In this document: one piece after another, positions 1,129 through 30,085 of the stretch
Numbering within the stretch: the first letter of the stretch is position 1
Layout: every line of letters begins with the position of its first letter
Assembly (NCBI GenBank): GCA_011109175.1
Contig: RDEW01000003.1
Location: 62,001 to 126,000, forward strand
DNA length: 64,000 nt
From: Dicyema japonicum
Taxonomy: Eukaryota; Dicyemida; Rhombozoa; Dicyemidae
Reading direction: 5' to 3'
Translations under genes and position numbers: made by a program
Notes under the pieces: model-generated
Databases searched by the model: none
Seen by the model: only the letters and a program-made list of their open reading frames with translations
Told to the model about the DNA's origin: nothing

Positions 1129-2640
1129 CTTGTCTTTTTAATAATTGTATTTGCTATTTAAATTTGTTCAGTTTTATCAATTTTAGTAGATTTCCGTTTT
1201 AGATTTTTCTATTATTGGTGTTTATTCGGTCGCTATGTCCATGACCATATAAAAATGTCGCTTGGCTCACCAATGACGTGGTGGCATTGTACACTGGACG
1301 TGAAAAAGAGCCGCAAACCCACTATCCCCTTCTCCTGGAGACGTGGATGATGTCGTGTATAATGTGGACCTCAAAGTTAGATTTTTCGCTTGGCAAAAAG
1401 AAGAGAGTTGTGGGTTACTAAATGACAGATGTAAAACTATGGAAACGATAAGATGTTAAAACTCAGTTGGTGATCGCAATTACCATGGTTTTAATAATAT
1501 GAGGTAAGAAATCTGATTTTGGCTGAAACTTGCGAATCAGTTAAAACTGCAAAAATCGCTTAGGGGTTTCTTGATAAAAAATTATTTTTTAAAATTTAAC
1601 TGATAAAGCATGAGAGAGAACAACGTAATTCCTTTTTGAAATAGTTTCTTAAGGGTTGATATACGGGGGAGAGCAGTCAAGCATTGGATTGTGACCATAC
1701 GAACAAATTGAACAACGAGCGATATGATCGTGGATAGGATCAAAACTCTAATGAAGGATTTATTAGTCTAAAAAAGACAAAATTCAGATGATATATCAGA
1801 AAATCAATTCTTATATAATCGACCACTTTTCTGAAAATTCAGGTTCTTCTATAATCCACCAATTTTCCTGAACTTTTTCGAAGCTTCCAAATGGCTGATT
1901 CAAGAGGTTTTTATCATTTATTGTGGCCATGATTTATCAATTACCCAAAAATTTACCTTTACTGATAAAATAGATTACGATTTTGTATCTTACATAGTAA
2001 TCGATATTATTACATTTGCACTCACTGTTAAAAAGAAGAAACTTATTTTGTAAAAAAGTTTTTGGAGGGAACATCTCAAGTTTTTTTAACCGAAGGAAAC
2101 CAATGACTAACAAAAATGTAACAATTAAAAGTGGAAGCTCAAAGTGGATCAGTCAATTGGGTTTGGTGAGGCTGGAAATAGAAAAGACAGAATAAGAGAC
2201 AGGATATGGCACAAGAAGTGATGTTGAGGTGATCAGAGAAGCAAAAAAAGTACAACAATGAGTCAGATTTTTATGTAAGAATGGAAAACATAGGATGGCT
2301 TCAAATTGACTCGAACTTCACCGGGTAGGGAAGTTTCACTTTTATCGATGTTTGGCCGCAGACCCCTGATAAGATTGTTGCAACCTCGGGTTTTGATTCC
2401 GTTAGTAGAGATCCATTCGTGAATCATTTTGATTCGTAAATTAGTGGCTCCTATTTTTGGTAAATATCTGAAAATCTGAGTTTTTATTCAAAATTGGGTA
2501 TGATTCTCTTGATATTCTAAGTTGAGTATGAAGAAATTTAATTTTATTACCCCCTGAATCACAAGAAAGAGAACAAGAGTTATCGTATAAGTTAAGTGAT
2601 CCCGGCGTCCATACCACTCTTTTTCCTGCGGTTAGTTTTG
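1129..2640. other. AT-rich intergenic stretch, no gene seen
   Basis: No open frame here matches a family I recognise and no intron-joined exons were found. The composition is AT-rich with short homopolymers. It may contain unrecognisable repeat remains. Confidence 0.5.
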
Positions 2641-3390: not shown

Positions 3391-4786
3391 TAATAATATA
3401 AAAGCCTTGAGAATACCAAATATCTTTACCAGGTCCACTTGGTGAGTGAATGAAAGGAGTAAACCAGGATGACTCCCAGGATTGAAAGCATCTTCTTCTA
3501 GGGATTTGGGGAGTCATGTAATTTTACTTCTGACGTCGTCCGGATCTTTTCGTGATGAGGTAAACGTCGTTACGTGTGACTTTCCTGGTAATACTAATAG
3601 GCAGTTCTTAAAGAACCGAGAACCACCAGGTTTAATATCTATTAAACGGACCAAAGATTTCAAGTCCGTCGGATGGCATCTTTTCATAAGGTTTCTTCGT
3701 TTTATGAGTGTCGGTGCCCGGCAATTGAAAGTAGGAATAAAATTCATGTATTATGATAGAGGAAATATGTTGTCACCCTTTTGAATAACTATACTGATGA
3801 TTTTTGCGGCTTCATCTATCGAACGTATATGGGATGAGATCCTTTGACCAATTCCATGTCATCGAAGTCAGAGAAGTTAGACCTTTAGTTCTTGAAATTT
3901 TTCGCTTCAGTCTGCAATGTTCAACGTCTCCTAAATCCTCTAAACATAAGAAGGATGGGATTATAGTGGCTGGAAAAACCATAATTCACATCCCATGTAG
4001 CAAATCCTGCTAAAGAGAATGAACATAATGTTAAATCGGAGGAAGTGCAGCTATCAGTTCTCTTGTGTGTAATTTAGGGTCATTCAGGATAATCATATCA
4101 ATAAGACCATTTGCGATGAACTCGCCTCGGCTATCAGAGGACTGTGAAGCAAGCCAAACGGGGTGTCGGGTATTTAGGTCCCCGCATATTAGAACGTTCT
4201 TTAGTGATGAGAGGCGGGGTATTCTTGGGGTGTAGGATCCTTTTAGCGGAATGTATAGGTTAATCGAATTAATCCAAAAAGACTGGAACAGCTCCATTTT
4301 GATGGTGATCTGCCCCATGATATCAGCTGAATCCAAAAGTTCTGAGGTCCGTTGACTCACGTCAATGAAGTGAATACCGTTCTTTATAATTGCGAGTAGT
4401 CCTCCACCTGGTCTTCCCTGACGGTCCTTACGGATCACTGTGTATCCGGGAAGGAATTGTTGGCCTGGATGATAAGAGCTTGGATTCCTGGATGAGAGAA
4501 AAATCAGCTCGATTTGCGGAGGAGAGATCTCGAAGTTCCAGAATCTTCCTTCTAATTCCATTTGTATTTAGTCGTAGAATTATTGAGTCTCCAAGAGGAC
4601 CAGAGTTTGTTTCATGTTGCCACATAAGATGATCAATATTAACAATGATGACAAAATGGAGTCGGAGGCACGTAGGTTACGAGAACCTCCAAATGGTAGG
4701 GAAAAGTTGATGGCTATTTTCGTTCCTTTCCTGAACGGGTGACACCTTTTCGGGTGAGCCACAAGACACCACGTTAAGCACATGGT
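3335..4786 (-). mobile_element. Decayed LINE 5' part (2A-LINE family), APE endonuclease
   Basis: Reverse-strand frames read as the N-terminal part of a non-LTR retrotransposon ORF: LNTNGIRRKILELRDL, then LIQESKLL, then a long frame (4031-4561) with GRPGGGLLAIIKNGIHF and ICGDLNTRHPVW, which are apurinic-endonuclease motifs. The frame breaks near 4430-4560, and the distal part (3335-3750) is only recognisable as scattered frames. It is a close relative of the LINE at 27.0-28.6 kb: endonuclease motifs occur in the same order. Just upstream of LNTNGIR the reading GNMKQT sits where the other copy has the 2A motif GDVEQNPGP. Confidence 0.78.
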
Positions 4787-12644: not shown

Positions 12645-13010
12645 AAATAACTGTTCTTTACTCACACTTAGTCGGAGATATAAATATTGTGGCTCACGTG
12701 AAAGGACTATTTAAATAAGTAAAATTGTTCTAAAGACCAAGGCTAAAACCAAACAAACTAGTTCCTTGATCCTTTCAAGCAGAACCTTCACCCAAGAACA
12801 GTGATCCAAGAATGTTGTCCGTCAAGCTTAGGTCGATTCCAGAGGGAAAGAAATTGTCCCCAGATGAAAGGAATAGTTGGATCCTTTTAAATGCCGGCCA
12901 GGAATTGGGCGTCTCCTGAGTAAGGTGGATCCAATGACGCCATCAAAGAAGGAAGAGAAATTTTCAACCAATTAACTACTGCTGAAGATTTTAAAAAAAG
13001 AAGTACCATG
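12645..13010 (+). repeat. SINE fragments (family A tail, then an inverted-copy repeat)
   Basis: 12645-12710 repeats the family A tail (AACTGTTCTTTACT, then ATATAAATATTGTGG). From 12755 to 12960 the sequence is the reverse complement of about 50240-50450: compare the ACTAGTTCCTTGATCC block at 12759 with GGATCAAGGAATTAGT near 50425, and GGTGGATCCAATGACG at 12924 with TGACGTCATTGGATCC near 50255. Confidence 0.6.
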
Positions 13011-18762: not shown

Positions 18763-19075
18763 TACCCCAGGATACACCAAGAAAAAATTTAACAGTAAAC
18801 AACTATTAAGTGTCTCCCGTTTGCTTCAACGTCACTCAAGTCCATTCCGAACCAGCATAAAAGGTAAAAGACGTCCATTCTTGCATTTTTGAAACCCCAT
18901 TATTGGAGTGGGAAAAAGAAAATGATCCCTTTTTGTACCACCCTGGCACTGGGTGCTGAGGAAGGTGGATCACATGACGCCACTTTAATAGGATAGGGAA
19001 TAGGAGGAACAAACAGAAATCTTATCCAATTAACCACATAGCACGACATGGCGCCATGCGGGCGAATTTTTCGAA
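18763..19075 (-). repeat. SINE family B copy
   Basis: Aligned by eye with 13325-13620 and 58205-58500; shared + strand blocks are GGATACACCAAGAAAAAATT, CCAGCATAAAAGGTAAAAGACG, GTGGATCACATGACGCCA and GCACGACATGGCGCCATGC. Confidence 0.75.
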
Positions 19076-24620: not shown

Positions 24621-24659
24621 CCTAAGGTCACCATAACGGATAACAATCATATTGAGGAA

Positions 24660-25000
24660 AATGTTCAATCATGTCTAATCGACGACCATCTTTTCTGTAC
24701 TTTGCCACCACCAATTTATTAATCATTGATCTCTGGGAATGTGTTTTACCTGAAGACAGAAAAAAAGACGTATTTAACACAACAATAACAGTATTGAGTG
24801 TTTCCTCACTAAAGATGAATATATCCCAACAATGCGGTTGGTATGAGACTAACTTCGGCGGACGACCTAAGATAACTAGCGCACAACAGAAGATAATAAT
24901 CGAGGCTGACGGAGAGGATAATTCGGAATACGGCACAAGGGATACTTAATTAGCTTTGTTTTCTCGGAGTGCTTTTTAATAATAATATCAGTATTAGTCC
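24660..25000 (+). mobile_element. LINE-X 3' end with TAA tail
   Basis: The frame SRLTERIIRNTAQGILN stops at about 24950 and is followed by TTCTCGGAGTGCTTTTTAAT and an AATAATATC tail. The same C-terminus, stop and (TAA)n-like tail occur at 56290-56400, and the same C-terminus in the deleted copy at 14.8 kb. Confidence 0.65.
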
Positions 25001-25053
25001 ACCTAAAAAAGATAACAAATAAATCCAAATAAAAAATTATTAAACAAAAAGTG

Positions 25054-26821
25054 ATTAATCCATAATTTAATAACATTGTCCCACCCACAGGTAACAATCT
25101 TTGATGTTTCATGTGGGTGCCACTTAGCACTTATGCATACACCATCATGAGCTTTGAACCGTAATACTTGACGACCGGTTTTAAAATCCCAAGCAAAACA
25201 GCGACCGTCAGCATCACCAGATATTACAAATTCATTATCAGGAGGAGAAATCAAGTCCACACGCATATCCAGATATAACATGTCCTGTAAAGATCTTCTT
25301 CCATATAATTCTGAATCTGTTTATAATGTTTAGGACATATATTTTATTATCAAGCGACTGAAACAACATCCACTTACCTAAACTAATAAACAAAGACTAA
25401 CCATTAACAGAACTGGCTGCCGTGGGCATTGAGTGGAGTTGTGGGTCAGCAATGTGCTTAAAGTCAACAGGAATATTCCTATAATAACAACAAAGTAAAA
25501 CCATTCCCATATACGAATACTCTTATCATCAGAGGTACTCACGAATCTTCTATTATTATCAACAAATGTTATAGAATTGATAGCATTCAAATGTCTGTCA
25601 TATTCCTGAGTTATTTCAGCAGTTCGGGTATCCCAACAGAGAATCTTCTTACTACTAGTCCCTGTAAGGAAGTAATGCTGTTTGTCCGCATCAGGATTAA
25701 ATCGAACACAAAACGGTAAATTCTTACTATTAAACCGAGCAATTGATTGTCCTAAGAAATATAACAAGAATACGACCAGTTTCAGTGTCCCACAGACGAA
25801 TATTGCCGTCATACCCAGCACTCAGAATCCTGTCCCCATTATTATTAAAGCAAATGTCCCTCACAGCATTCTGATGACCCATATAAGTACGTATACATCG
25901 TCTCTTTCCGTAAACCTCCCAAATCTTAACACAAGCGTCCATTCCACAGGATAACAGTAGATGTGCAGATCCAGGAAACCACTTCATGTTCATGATCTGC
26001 TTAGTATGACCGCTCCATGTGTGAATTAACTTTTTCGGAGTATAACATTTGCTAGGGTAATAATCTGCGCTCAGATTGACACCAGTATCCAATGGGGGAT
26101 TCACAAATGATCGACCCATATAGTCCACTGTTTCAGGCACGTGTAATATGGTTTTAATTTCAAAGTGCTGTTCTTTGGGGGTTATTTCCCTTTCTAACGT
26201 TGCGTTTTGTAATAATTTCATTCAGTTCCTTTTGCATCTCATCAGAAGGACGACTGACTGTTTCCTCGTCCGCATATTTCCCCCAAGGACCCAAATAACC
26301 ATCAATATCAGCTGCGTCGTTATTCTTTATCCTCACACGTTTGGGATTCATAGACTGGAGGTCAAAGTATTCTACATTGTTCCGTTTATCCCCGATTATA
26401 GTACAACCATCAGAAGGATCCACAGAATGGTCTAATATTAGCGAAACAGTTACTCATTGTGTGGAAAGTCAGTCGTTGATTCTCAAAACTAAAAACATCC
26501 ACGTGGGACTGCTCTACATATGCATTAAGGATGTTCTTTGTGGCCCTCTCTTGTCCTGTTAGGTTTGGGGCCTCTGGTCCTTCCTATCAACTTAATTTTA
26601 ACAGATACTGTTGGTCTGAACAATTCTTCATATGTTGGGTTGTAAGATACGGCTTTACAGTCATTTCCCACATATTTTGGGCGAATAGCTTTCATCTAAA
26701 ATATTTAAATATCAAGTATTACGTCTTGATATACAGAAGGGGCCAATTCAACCTTAGGTAGCGATAAAGGACGACTAATTGTTTCATCTTCAACATCGCT
26801 GTTGTAAATATCAAGATTCAT
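25054..26821 (-). CDS. CDC40: Pre-mRNA splicing factor CDC40/PRP17
   Basis: WD40 spliceosome component that acts at the second catalytic step. Start ATG 26821 (MNLDIYNSDVEDE). N-terminal family motifs: VSYNPTYEELF, GPEAPNLTG, NAYVEQSHVDVFSFENQRLT and DGYLGPWGKYADE; then KTILHVPE, IHTWSGHTKQIMNMKWFP, LLLSCGMDACVKIWEVYG, GHQNAVRDICFNNNGD, YDRHLNAINSITFVD, RRFVSTSDDKS, GKWMLFQSLDNKI, KAHDGVCISAKWHPHETSK and the final CGWDNVIKLW. About seven introns of 22-27 bp; one lies at 26432-26453. Three frame breaks: the five-C run (read on the reverse strand) at 26177-26181, one near 25260, and one G missing at 25059-25060, without which the protein would end in the family's IKLWD. With the sequence as given, the frame instead runs on to 25003. 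Confidence 0.93.
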
Positions 26822-27027
26822 TATTTTCTAAAACAACTACAACCACGCAAGATTTCTATATTTAAAAAATATTTATTAAATATTAATAAGTGAAATTATT
26901 AGAAAAATAGAAAATTAATTAAAATTAGATTATTTTAATATATCATATGGAATATGATTAATTTTAGCGTGCGTCATGTGGTTCACCGTTTCTGGTGGCG
27001 TCGGATATAGTCCTAAACTATATCTAA

Positions 27028-28592
27028 AAAGAACCATTTGCTTTCTACCAACCAGAGGACTTCCCACTGGACGGCATTCTCACTGTTGGAACATTCTATC
27101 GATTGAGACTGTTGACCTCAGGAGACGTGGAACAAAACCCAGGCCCAAAGAAGTTAACAATCCAAAGCTTAAACATAAACGGGATCAGAGGAAAGATTGC
27201 CGAATTTCCTTATTCTTGGAGAGGAACAGAGTGGACATCTGCCTTCTCCAGGAAACGAAACTTTCAAATAACATTCATACTCCTCTCTTTAACGGATACA
27301 ACACAGTAAGATCCGACCGCCCATCTGGCCAAGGAGGGGGTCTACTGACTCTTGTGAGAAAAGGAATAAAATACCTCGAGAACCCTTTTCTTTACAAGAG
27401 CTTAATGGAAGACTCGAACACGGAGATAATTGGAATCTCTGTTATAACTTCCATTGGAAAAATTGAAATTGCGAATGTTTATGTTCTCCTCCTGACTCCT
27501 GCAAGAAAAATTTTCCTTTGACCTATCCACCTTGGACAAACTGGAGAACTTGCTTCTATGTGGAGACCTGAATGCGAAGCACTCTTCTTGGTTCCGCTAC
27601 CAGTCCATTAATAACAGAGGAAACCTGCTATTATCCCAAATGCAAAACTTAATAATCATCACAAACCCGAAAAAGAACACTAGGACACCATACAACACGA
27701 AGTATATGGTGACATCTCCGGACTTATCCGTCTTATCACCTCGTCTTTCCCGATCATTAATTGGACGGTCCTTTATGACCTCCGGAGCGACCACCATTCA
27801 ATGATAATGAAGCTGAACTGCGAACCACGTTTTGTACCGAAGCCTATTCATTTCTATGATTACTAAAATGCAAATTGGACTGACTTTACAAATTTTGTTG
27901 ATTCAAAACTGCAACATTTCCACCCTGAAAATTTCTCCTCCATAGACAAAGCTGTATACTATTTCAACGAAACAATCATTGACGGAGAAAAAATTTTATC
28001 AGAAAAGCATATATAAAAAACGAAAAATTAAAATACAACTCAAAAACAAGGAAAATAATTATGGAAAGAAACAACCTTAAGAGAATGACACATCGATCAC
28101 GAAAGGTCATTAATCGAATCAGGTCACTAAACATTCTTATCGCGAAAAGCACGAACAACACCCGAAGGAAGAAACTCATGCGAATCTCTGTTACTATGAA
28201 TAATCAGACTTCAATTTCCAACATGTGGAAAATGTTGAGGCGTCTAAAAAAGTCAGAATACGAAGATAACAAAAAACAATGCCAGCACAATCTGAATAAA
28301 TATGTGAAACATTGTATTCGAATCAGTCACATTTTTTATAAAAAGATTAACACACAACCGAAAATAAAGAGAAAGTTATCCAAAATGGCCCCGCTGATTT
28401 ATTTTCTTCCTAAAGATGTATACAAAGCAACATCAATTCAGAAAAAAACAAACTCATGTGGCCCAGACGGAATTCCTCTTATTCTGCTGAAATACTTGGG
28501 ACAAGCATCAATAAATGCATTAACAATCATCTACAACACATCGCTGAACATAAATACCATACCGACTCTATGGAAACTATCAAAAATTTGAA
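27028..28592 (+). mobile_element. LINE with N-terminal 2A-like peptide, APE endonuclease and start of RT
   Basis: The open frame from about 27031 reads FYRLRLLTSGDVEQNPGP, a full 2A-like motif, directly followed by KKLTIQSLNINGIRGKIAEF, the first strand of an APE-type endonuclease. After a frame change the endonuclease continues: NRVDICLLQETKLSNN, SGQGGGLLTLVRKGIKY; a further change gives LLLCGDLNAKHSSWF. Basic linker frames follow, then the RT entry motif NSCGPDGIPLILLKYLG near 28450-28500. The element breaks off at about 28592. It is degraded by at least three frame breaks. The 2A would be expected to release an upstream peptide from the EN-RT protein by ribosome skipping. The upstream piece is short: the frame opens only about 70 bases earlier, after a stop. 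Confidence 0.82.
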
Positions 28593-28610
28593 CAATATTG
28601 AAGCCAGGAA

Positions 28611-28815
28611 GACCGAAGAACGATTCCAATTGGGGCAGAAATCCCGTGGCCTTGAAGGCTCGAAAAATGATGTCATTGAGGGCTGCGTGACGCGGGGCTC
28701 GACCAGCACTTCGTCGGCAAAAGAGTAGATGTAAGCCTTTCGCATCAACGTCCCCGCCGCAACGGCATTTGTGTCTCTAGCATATGTTCATTCCTAGGCG
28801 CAGTGCCACCCCATC
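28611..28815 (-). mobile_element. LINE fragment: zinc knuckle before restriction-like endonuclease
   Basis: The reverse-strand frame reads VALRLGMNIC, then HKCRCGGDVDAKGLHLLFC (a C-x-C...H...C zinc knuckle) and APRHAALNDIIFRAFKATGF. This order is typical of the C-terminal part of LINEs that carry a restriction-like endonuclease. It ends just where the next part (EPVGL...RPD) would begin; that next part is present in the 47.5-kb copy. Confidence 0.65.
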
Positions 28816-28834
28816 CTCAGGCTGTTTTCGTGGC

Positions 28835-29100
28835 TAATTGGTTGAAGTTTTGTTTGTTTTATCAGTTCCTCCTCTTTCCCTTCCTAATAGATAGATAGCG
28901 TCACGCGATCGACCTGTCTCAGGTGGCGCGCAGTGCCGGGCTGGTAAGAAAAAGGATTATTTTGTCTCCATCACTCCACTGGAGGGGTTTCCACAACTGC
29001 GAGGAATGGACTTCTTTTACCTTATATCCTGATTAAGTTGGTTGACGTTGAAAGACTCTATTTGTAATGATGGAAACTGGATACACTTAATTAGTTATTT
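28835..29100 (+). repeat. SINE family B copy with LINE-like tail
   Basis: Inverted relative to the copies at 13.3, 18.8 and 58.2 kb: CGTGGCTAATTGGTTGAAG, ATAGATAGCGTCACGCGATC, CACTGGAGGGGTTTCCACAA, and the tail GGATACACTTAATTAGTT then TTTTCGGTGCATCCGTGG followed by TTATTAAATTAAT. Confidence 0.75.
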
Positions 29101-29119
29101 ACTGTTTTTCGGTGCATCC

Positions 29120-30085
29120 GTGGTTATTAAATTAATTTATCTGAAGACGGTAATTTTTTCCATGGATATTCACAAAGCGTTTGAATCCGTCCCTAGGAAA
29201 AACTTAACTGGAAAATATTCCAATCGGAAATCCCTGGAAGCTTAAACACTGGTTGGATAACTTCCTTAGTGGTCTGATGGGCGTGTTTATTTTGGAGATT
29301 TACGATCGGCATCGCGACTTTCCAGAATGACGTCCCCCAAGGATCACCTTTATCCCCTTCATTGTTCAGCCTATTTACTGCCGATCTTCCCATTCCAGAA
29401 AACGGGAGCGGCATCCTACTAACTTATGCTGATGACATTCTTCTGGACTCACGCGATCAAGATATTCAGGTTGCAACAACACCTTGACCGTTTTAACATT
29501 TGGTTTGTGGACATTAGCCCGGAGAAATCATCACCACATTAGTCACTTCCGAAAAAAAGATTAAACTGAAGGATGACAGTAGAGCTGAAGTTGATAATGC
29601 TGGAATCCCTTTTAGCAAACACCAGAAAAATTTTCGAGTCACATTCCACATGCATGTGTGTTTCTCACAGCATGTCAAGAACGTGATCATCAAATGCGAG
29701 AAAAGGGCTTAAGTTCTGAAAAGCATCTCAGGAGTATGGAATGCAGGAAACCATCCAGTCCTGAACTCTATCTAAAAGCAGTACGTCAACCATGCATCTC
29801 AGATGCACGTGTTTCCTGAGGCCAGTTTATCTTTTGGACAAATTCCATGAAGGGCTTCTAAATTACGGAACGATAAACTTCTGGAAAGTTCCATTTTCCT
29901 ATGTCTCTGGAATCCTTAATTTGTAAGAACCGAGGAACGTGCCTTGCAACTACGAGGTTCCAGTTATAAGGCCGATACGTAATTGTGTGGGCTCGAGGGA
30001 AGAACACCGTGGCAAACTGAAATTTCTATGGAGCATACCGGGATCATGTGAGTTTAAGAAAAAATCAAGAAGGTTGTTAACCGGA
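29120..30085 (+). mobile_element. LINE reverse transcriptase and 3' end (family W), decayed
   Basis: Readable pieces in order: FSMDIHKAFESVPR (RT motif A region), a segment with DVPQGSPLSPSLFSL-like coding potential near 29322-29375, LTYADDILL (catalytic box, 29420-29440), IKLKDDSRAEVDNAGIPFS, and a C-terminal REEHRGKLKFL near 30000. Frames change repeatedly. Confidence 0.6.

Follow-up and report, generated by a model that had tools for sequence, protein, structure and literature searches.

Why should a LINE carry a ribosome-skipping peptide at the head of its coding frame? The question is raised by a 64,000-nucleotide stretch of the Dicyema japonicum genome (contig RDEW01000003.1, positions 62,001 to 126,000; hereafter the window, numbered from its first letter; GC 37.6%), in which the residues FYRLRLLTSG-DVEQNPGP are encoded at 27094-27147 (+) in the same frame as the start of a LINE endonuclease. 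The window translation at the motif is GTFYRLRLLTSGDVEQNPGPKKLTIQSLNINGIRGKIAEF, the reading that contains the core is FYRLRLLTSGDVEQNPGPKKLTIQSLNINGIRGKI, and the core is spelled GAC GTG GAA CAA AAC CCA GGC CCA (27124-27147, +), with the context FYRLRLLTSG immediately upstream (27094-27123, +) and skipping predicted between the Gly (27142-27144) and the Pro (27145-27147). An earlier note had recognized here a 2A-like DVExNPGP core with an LL-x-x-G-type context, in frame with the endonuclease at the head of a LINE ORF, and this description is borne out.

The copy in the window is the degenerate 5′ portion of an element that we assign to family A. The DNA match to the open family-A copy L082 is confined to 26960-28627 (+; blastn of the L082 element against the window, 94.6% identity), and the apurinic-type endonuclease region (27148-28007, +; tblastn, with Pfam on L082) is frame-shifted. 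It is followed by the interval that separates endonuclease from reverse transcriptase, together with the initial reverse transcriptase residues (27986-28654, +; 85% identical to L082), where the protein match runs to 28654 and the DNA match to 28627. In the 2A frame a stop at 27025-27027 precedes a stretch open from 27028 to 27306, with no ATG ahead of the core. The ATG at 26976-26978 (+), which corresponds to the one that opens the long frame of L082, lies 148 nt before the core (leader 26976-27123, +) vs. 150 nt in six of eight family-A copies, and because of these two missing nucleotides it is out of frame with the 2A. The window ORF thus has the motif in frame with the endonuclease start, as claimed, but not with its own start codon.

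Long reading frames, of 1030 and 931 aa, survive in two family-A copies. The L082 ATG begins an uninterrupted stretch of 928 aa comprising a 50-residue leader, DVEQNPGP, endonuclease and reverse transcriptase in a single frame, with the Pfam domains PF03372, PF14529, and PF00078; this leader fits the earlier suggestion that the motif separates a short leader from the enzyme. L082 also has TTGCACCGTTCCTGA at both flanks as a target-site duplication, and an (AAT)n tail, both judged by eye in this one copy. By its ORF, target site and tail in L082, the element of the window’s family is a single-ORF APE-type non-LTR retrotransposon. Runs of N lie within the copies L039, L134, and L138. Multiple copies of LINE-1 ORF2 are noted in the paper on the Dicyema genome.

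To assess the distribution of the motif, we searched the 64.67-Mb assembly (191 contigs) with the codon pattern GAYGTNGARNNNAAYCCNGGNCCN for DVExNPGP, which matched at 209 places (108 + 101), while the reversed control gave 0; a chance match is rejected on this count. Of these matches 153 start with GAC, and a GAT[G/A]T pattern that takes in the DIE type gave 95, of which 39 are DIE by subtraction. Sixty loci around exact cores were read, and an endonuclease match (E cut-off 1e-3, at most 500 nt downstream) followed the core in 51 of them, was missing in nine and lay upstream in none. The possibility raised in the earlier note, that the family might lack the motif or carry it in a different frame from the endonuclease, was thereby checked on real copies: the first downstream endonuclease match shares the frame of the core in 48 of the 51 loci. 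Judging by the residues that flank and follow the core, we grouped the copies by eye into 14 families (A, that of the window, and B to N).

Between families the motif is kept as protein and not as DNA. In a comparison of single copies from 12 of the 14 families (E and F were omitted, having no regular-expression match to the endonuclease head), NPGP has a pN of 0.000 and a pS of 0.773 and is written in 11 codon spellings, and pN/pS is 0.17 over the eight-codon core, 0.62 over the 10 codons upstream and 0.36 over the endonuclease head. Since NPGP is unchanged as protein while its codons vary, selection acts on the peptide.

The core octapeptide (D/G/C/N)(V/I)ExNPGP is found in 12 of the 14 families (A-K and N), and, as in viral StopGo/2A sequences, it is joined to an L-rich hexapeptide ending in (A/S/C)G (in the accessible part of PMC12846837), which by eye is present or nearly so in most of the 14. 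The contexts include ILLLSG, LLLLSG, LMLSG, and LLTSG and resemble L-rich viral motifs such as StopGo motif 6, which is described in that source as active in reticulocyte lysate; family C is the exception, with GLRRCG and no L-rich context. Unlike the viral examples, the sequences reported here stand in retrotransposons, and families M (DVNPNPGP) and L (DINSNPGP) have Asn at the Glu position (loci L080, L091-L093, and L109, with several M copies sharing the Asn), a residue absent from the StopGo variants listed in the portion of PMC12846837 available to us. One further locus, L098, has Lys at this position. Beyond Dicyema, a set of 5.8 billion yielded 38 homologous proteins, 11 of them with NPGP among their first 250 residues, and a 2A at this place is therefore widespread. 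In five of these homologs (P0001, P0002, P0003, P0006, and P0011) the Glu is replaced by His (IHPNPGP, LHPNPGP, IHSNPGP), and one StopGo sequence with His there is given as about 90% active or more in lysate (PMC12846837, in the part seen).

Copies of a family diverge from each other, by eye, about 105-170 nt before the core, and the first 51-85 nt of the shared 5′ part pair as P1, P2, P3, and a P4 hairpin in the order of an HDV-like ribozyme. In the window the predicted RNA spans 26970-27036 (+), with P1 formed by 26970-26975 and 26997-27002, P2 by 26979-26984 and 27031-27036, P3 by 26985-26987 and 26994-26996, and the P4 hairpin inside 27003-27025 (all +); it scores 67.7 bits with the fold model R1, the window copy itself being among the 16 sequences of the model. 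The fold was examined with one row for each of 16 families (13 with the 2A and three without), family L and the unsorted copies standing outside and three of 19 rows being omitted (L130 of family N, which has placeholder letters, and L140 and L123 of family Z). P1 is paired in 85 of 96 cells vs. 72.7 ± 2.3 in shuffles, and P2 in 94 of 96 vs. 85.9 ± 1.2, with 0 of 100000 shuffles as high in either case; P3, paired in 42 of 48 cells, is not above shuffles. In a MAFFT alignment of the 16 families 92.1% of the cells are paired and nine of 15 pairs are altered on both sides, and the covariation score is 0.406 vs. 0.226 ± 0.022 after shuffling and at most 0.133 when the partners are slid by one to three columns. 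Further pair types (22 vs. 19.8 ± 1.4) are the one covariation measure of five that does not stand out. The segments were picked by seeking pairing, which biases toward a fold; the slid control and the copying of contiguous sequence limit this bias. P4 varies between families and is above shuffled sequence in about half of them. Collectively, the alignment supports an HDV-like double pseudoknot ahead of the 2A.

The start codon lies in or beside this fold. Its place in the open copies takes three forms. Eight families (A, D, F, H, J, K, M, and N) have the ATG in the joining segment J1/2, three (C, E, and G) have it where P1 begins, and in B it slightly precedes P1, 19 nt ahead of P2. For each of these 12 families one copy, chosen for being open, is stop-free from this ATG to the core, with leaders of 35 to 56 codons. 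The earlier alternative that the element is translated within an upstream reading frame finds no support here; translation from a frame of foreign origin was set aside, the ATG sitting within the element. The distance from P2 to the core, modulo 3, has a majority value of 0 in A (six of eight copies), D (three of five), and M (three of three), of 2 in B (five of eight), and of 1 in G (three of three). It is mixed in E, F, K, and N, as it is within most families; both counted H copies are out of frame, the sole counted I copy misfits, C and J gave no count, and 15 cores belonged to no sorted family. Three frames thus run through one conserved RNA, and the beginning of the leader is therefore best seen as a by-product of the RNA.

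The motif, its frame, the selection on the peptide and the covarying RNA are direct observations, and we consider it probable, judging from these sequences, that a StopGo/2A peptide operates at the head of these single-ORF APE-type non-LTR retrotransposons, where skipping would free the endonuclease-reverse transcriptase from an RNA-dictated leader. Translation would begin at the ATG inside the folded 5′ RNA or next to it and produce a leader of about 35-56 residues, the first part of which, read through one conserved RNA in three frames, is presumably dictated by the overlapping fold; at the 2A the ribosome would omit the last Gly-Pro bond, release the leader and continue into an endonuclease-reverse transcriptase with an N-terminal proline. 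As the leader overlaps the RNA fold, the 2A probably serves to free the enzyme from this leader, which would allow the enzyme to be produced without its passenger, and a conserved folded RNA through which the protein start is read suggests why a release signal is needed. Against this account, many copies are degenerate, that of the window included, families M and L have Asn for Glu, and family C is without the L-rich context. The motif might instead be conserved merely as part of a promoter or RNA element, with a functionless peptide; there is indeed a conserved nucleic-acid element upstream of the core, but the fold in the window ends 87 nt before it (27036 to 27124), and the synonymous changes among the 11 NPGP spellings of 12 families, under an invariant peptide, led us to reject conservation of the DNA alone as highly improbable. 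An unlikely reading, though one with a precedent in sea-urchin 2A-like signal sequences (PMC4981915, in the part available), is that the 2A is partially active and that the mixture matters, leader-fused enzyme serving in one compartment and free enzyme in another. In its favor, families D, F, and N have leaders with a hydrophobic stretch at the end; against it, leaders vary from family to family, and different frames of the RNA encode their N-terminal parts.

The 2A is not obligatory. An endonuclease-only search yielded 1529 candidates, of which 150 were scored; 151 rows were listed and 40 of these fetched. By eye, the 2A, intact or as a mutated remnant, is present in 20 of the 40 and missing from the other 20 (12 with and 8 without in one batch, 8 with and 12 without in a second), a proportion that understates the share of the 2A because rows already known to carry it were mostly skipped. 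The 20 rows without it form, by eye, the families X, Y, and Z, with the leader missing from the stretch read in some; these families keep the 5′ RNA, do without the 2A and include two Z copies (L123 and L140) in which the frame stays open between ATG and endonuclease with no NPGP. We built an endonuclease tree on about 110 sites, dropping H L148 and I L150, which have fewer than 60 residues, and including the 11 of the 38 homologs with over 85 aligned residues. In it X, Y, and Z group as a clade (support 0.86), which adjoins the 2A-bearing families N and J (support 0.94). A single loss of the 2A in this clade would be the simplest reading.

Whether the 5′ RNA cleaves itself is a separate matter. 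C-N-A-A is the expected surrounding of the catalytic C in HDV-like ribozymes. Of 16 families, 11 have it in the 8 nt preceding P2′, vs. a mean of 5.6 and a maximum of 11 in 2000 shuffles, and at offset windows in six of 14 (12 nt), one of 15 (4 nt), and one of 15 (8 nt); it is missing in C, E, F, G, and N, the example of N (L122) seeming to be shortened there. Families C, E, G, and K have the element’s 5′ end, by eye, roughly at the P1 base; nine others (A, B, D, F, H, J, N, X, and Z) have about 5 shared nucleotides upstream of P1, and Y is judged from one copy. Rfam gives no HDV-type match in the window at 26900-27300 up to E 10, nor at 10 loci up to E 5.

It is quite possible, if somewhat short of even chance, that, at least in many families, the 5′ RNA works as a promoter or as a translation element and has an HDV-like fold that does not cleave. 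This is consistent with the lack of C-N-A-A in five of 16 families and with a count of 11 that at least one of 2000 shuffles equals, with the shared nucleotides ahead of P1 in nine families and with the silence of Rfam, and in L1Tc one 77-nt stretch is described as both promoter and ribozyme (PMC4748587, in the part consulted). On the other side stand the strong covariation of P1 and P2, the excess of C-N-A-A before P2′ over its shuffled mean, and the copies of C, E, G, and K that start at or beside P1. Tentatively, and about as plausible, the 5′ end may be one integrated module, in which a self-cleaving HDV-like ribozyme holds or adjoins the start codon (in J1/2, at P1, or just before it), so that the RNA that frees the 5′ end would also encode the first residues, and a 2A then removes the RNA-dictated leader; as the families diverged, the frame read through the ribozyme would have changed two or more times without loss of the fold, and in one clade the 2A would have disappeared, leaving the leader fused.

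Parts of this arrangement have been described elsewhere. 2A peptides are reportedly present in APE-type LINEs of multicellular organisms, a finding attributed to Odon et al. in 2013, and those animal LINEs would resemble the present ones in having a 2A in APE-type elements. The R2 elements, which also have HDV-like ribozymes, are a different kind of LINE. In the available passages of PMC3774820, R2 ribozymes have a P1 of 6-7 bp with top mismatches allowed, a P2 of at least 5 bp, a variable P4 and a catalytic C, and they vary in P1, P2, and P4 about as much as the folds reported here; unlike them, the shared 5′ sequence here starts upstream of P1 in nine families. The closest parallel is L1Tc of Trypanosoma cruzi (L1Tc/ingi clade), which, in the portions of PMC4748587 and PMC4035085 available, combines the Pr77 promoter, an HDV-like ribozyme and a 2A, and shares with the Dicyema elements a 5′-terminal HDV-like fold, a 2A, an AP-type endonuclease and a reverse transcriptase. 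Thus, the 2A in LINEs is already known, as is its pairing with a ribozyme in the trypanosome element. The Dicyema elements differ from L1Tc, for which a passage of PMC4035085 refers to a 5′-UTR, in having the start codon inside or next to the fold, with the leader encoded across it, and in the presence of many divergent families in one genome.

In the open-access literature, with subscription papers mostly outside the search, we found no description of dicyemid 2A-like sequences, and under the words HDV-like ribozyme and 2A-like none of the two together, the L1Tc papers wording it otherwise; on a dicyemid ribozyme this literature gave nothing beyond a review of mitochondrial genomes. Relatives with flanking DNA in other genomes were sought with P0003 against genome_contigs (16 pattern matches, 0 confirmed) and with alignment A2 against viral_contigs (30 pattern matches, 0 confirmed), and the fold was examined in this one genome. 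The Dicyema elements offer a testable reason for ribosome skipping in LINEs, namely that the leader overlaps a structured RNA that is not freely changeable, so that the enzyme is freed during translation. With 14 2A-like families, two odd cores, one odd context and a 2A-less clade, a single genome provides a natural panel for the requirements and the loss of the 2A, and should the RNA prove self-cleaving, ribozyme and 2A would occur together outside trypanosomes too.

Other heads in the window, outside the sequences of the model, are matched by the fold model at 1254 (+), 4711 (-), 12879 (-), and 18923 (-), with E from 1e-5 to 5e-4, and five further matches are weaker (E 0.025 to 2.8). By eye the head at 1254-1313 (+) has P1 AATGTC/GGCATT and P2 TGGCTC/GAGCCG, with no endonuclease recognized behind it, and that at 4711-4770 (-) belongs to a second LINE copy, family B-like, in which the 5′ fold and a broken 2A remnant precede the endonuclease and protein remnants continue to about 3948. 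A second, short repeat starts GGCGTCATTGGATCCACCTTACTCAG and has window copies at 12879-12941 (-) and 50245 (+), which align over about 220 nt at 71%; its start occurs at 126 places in the genome with at most two mismatches (reversed control 0), and the head at 12879 has, by eye, a possible P1 GGCGTC/GACGCC and P2 GGATCC/GGATCC in the same HDV-like order. Weaker model matches at 18923 (-), 21649 (+), 28897 (+), and 50046 (+) were grouped with this repeat, that at 28897 falling inside the stretch 28628-29143 (+), which lies past the end of the LINE DNA match and is followed from 29144 by diverged reverse-transcriptase remnants. On the opposite strand, upstream of the LINE, 24631-26827 (-) holds a WD40-repeat gene, apparently divided into several short exons, which we take to be PRP17-like.
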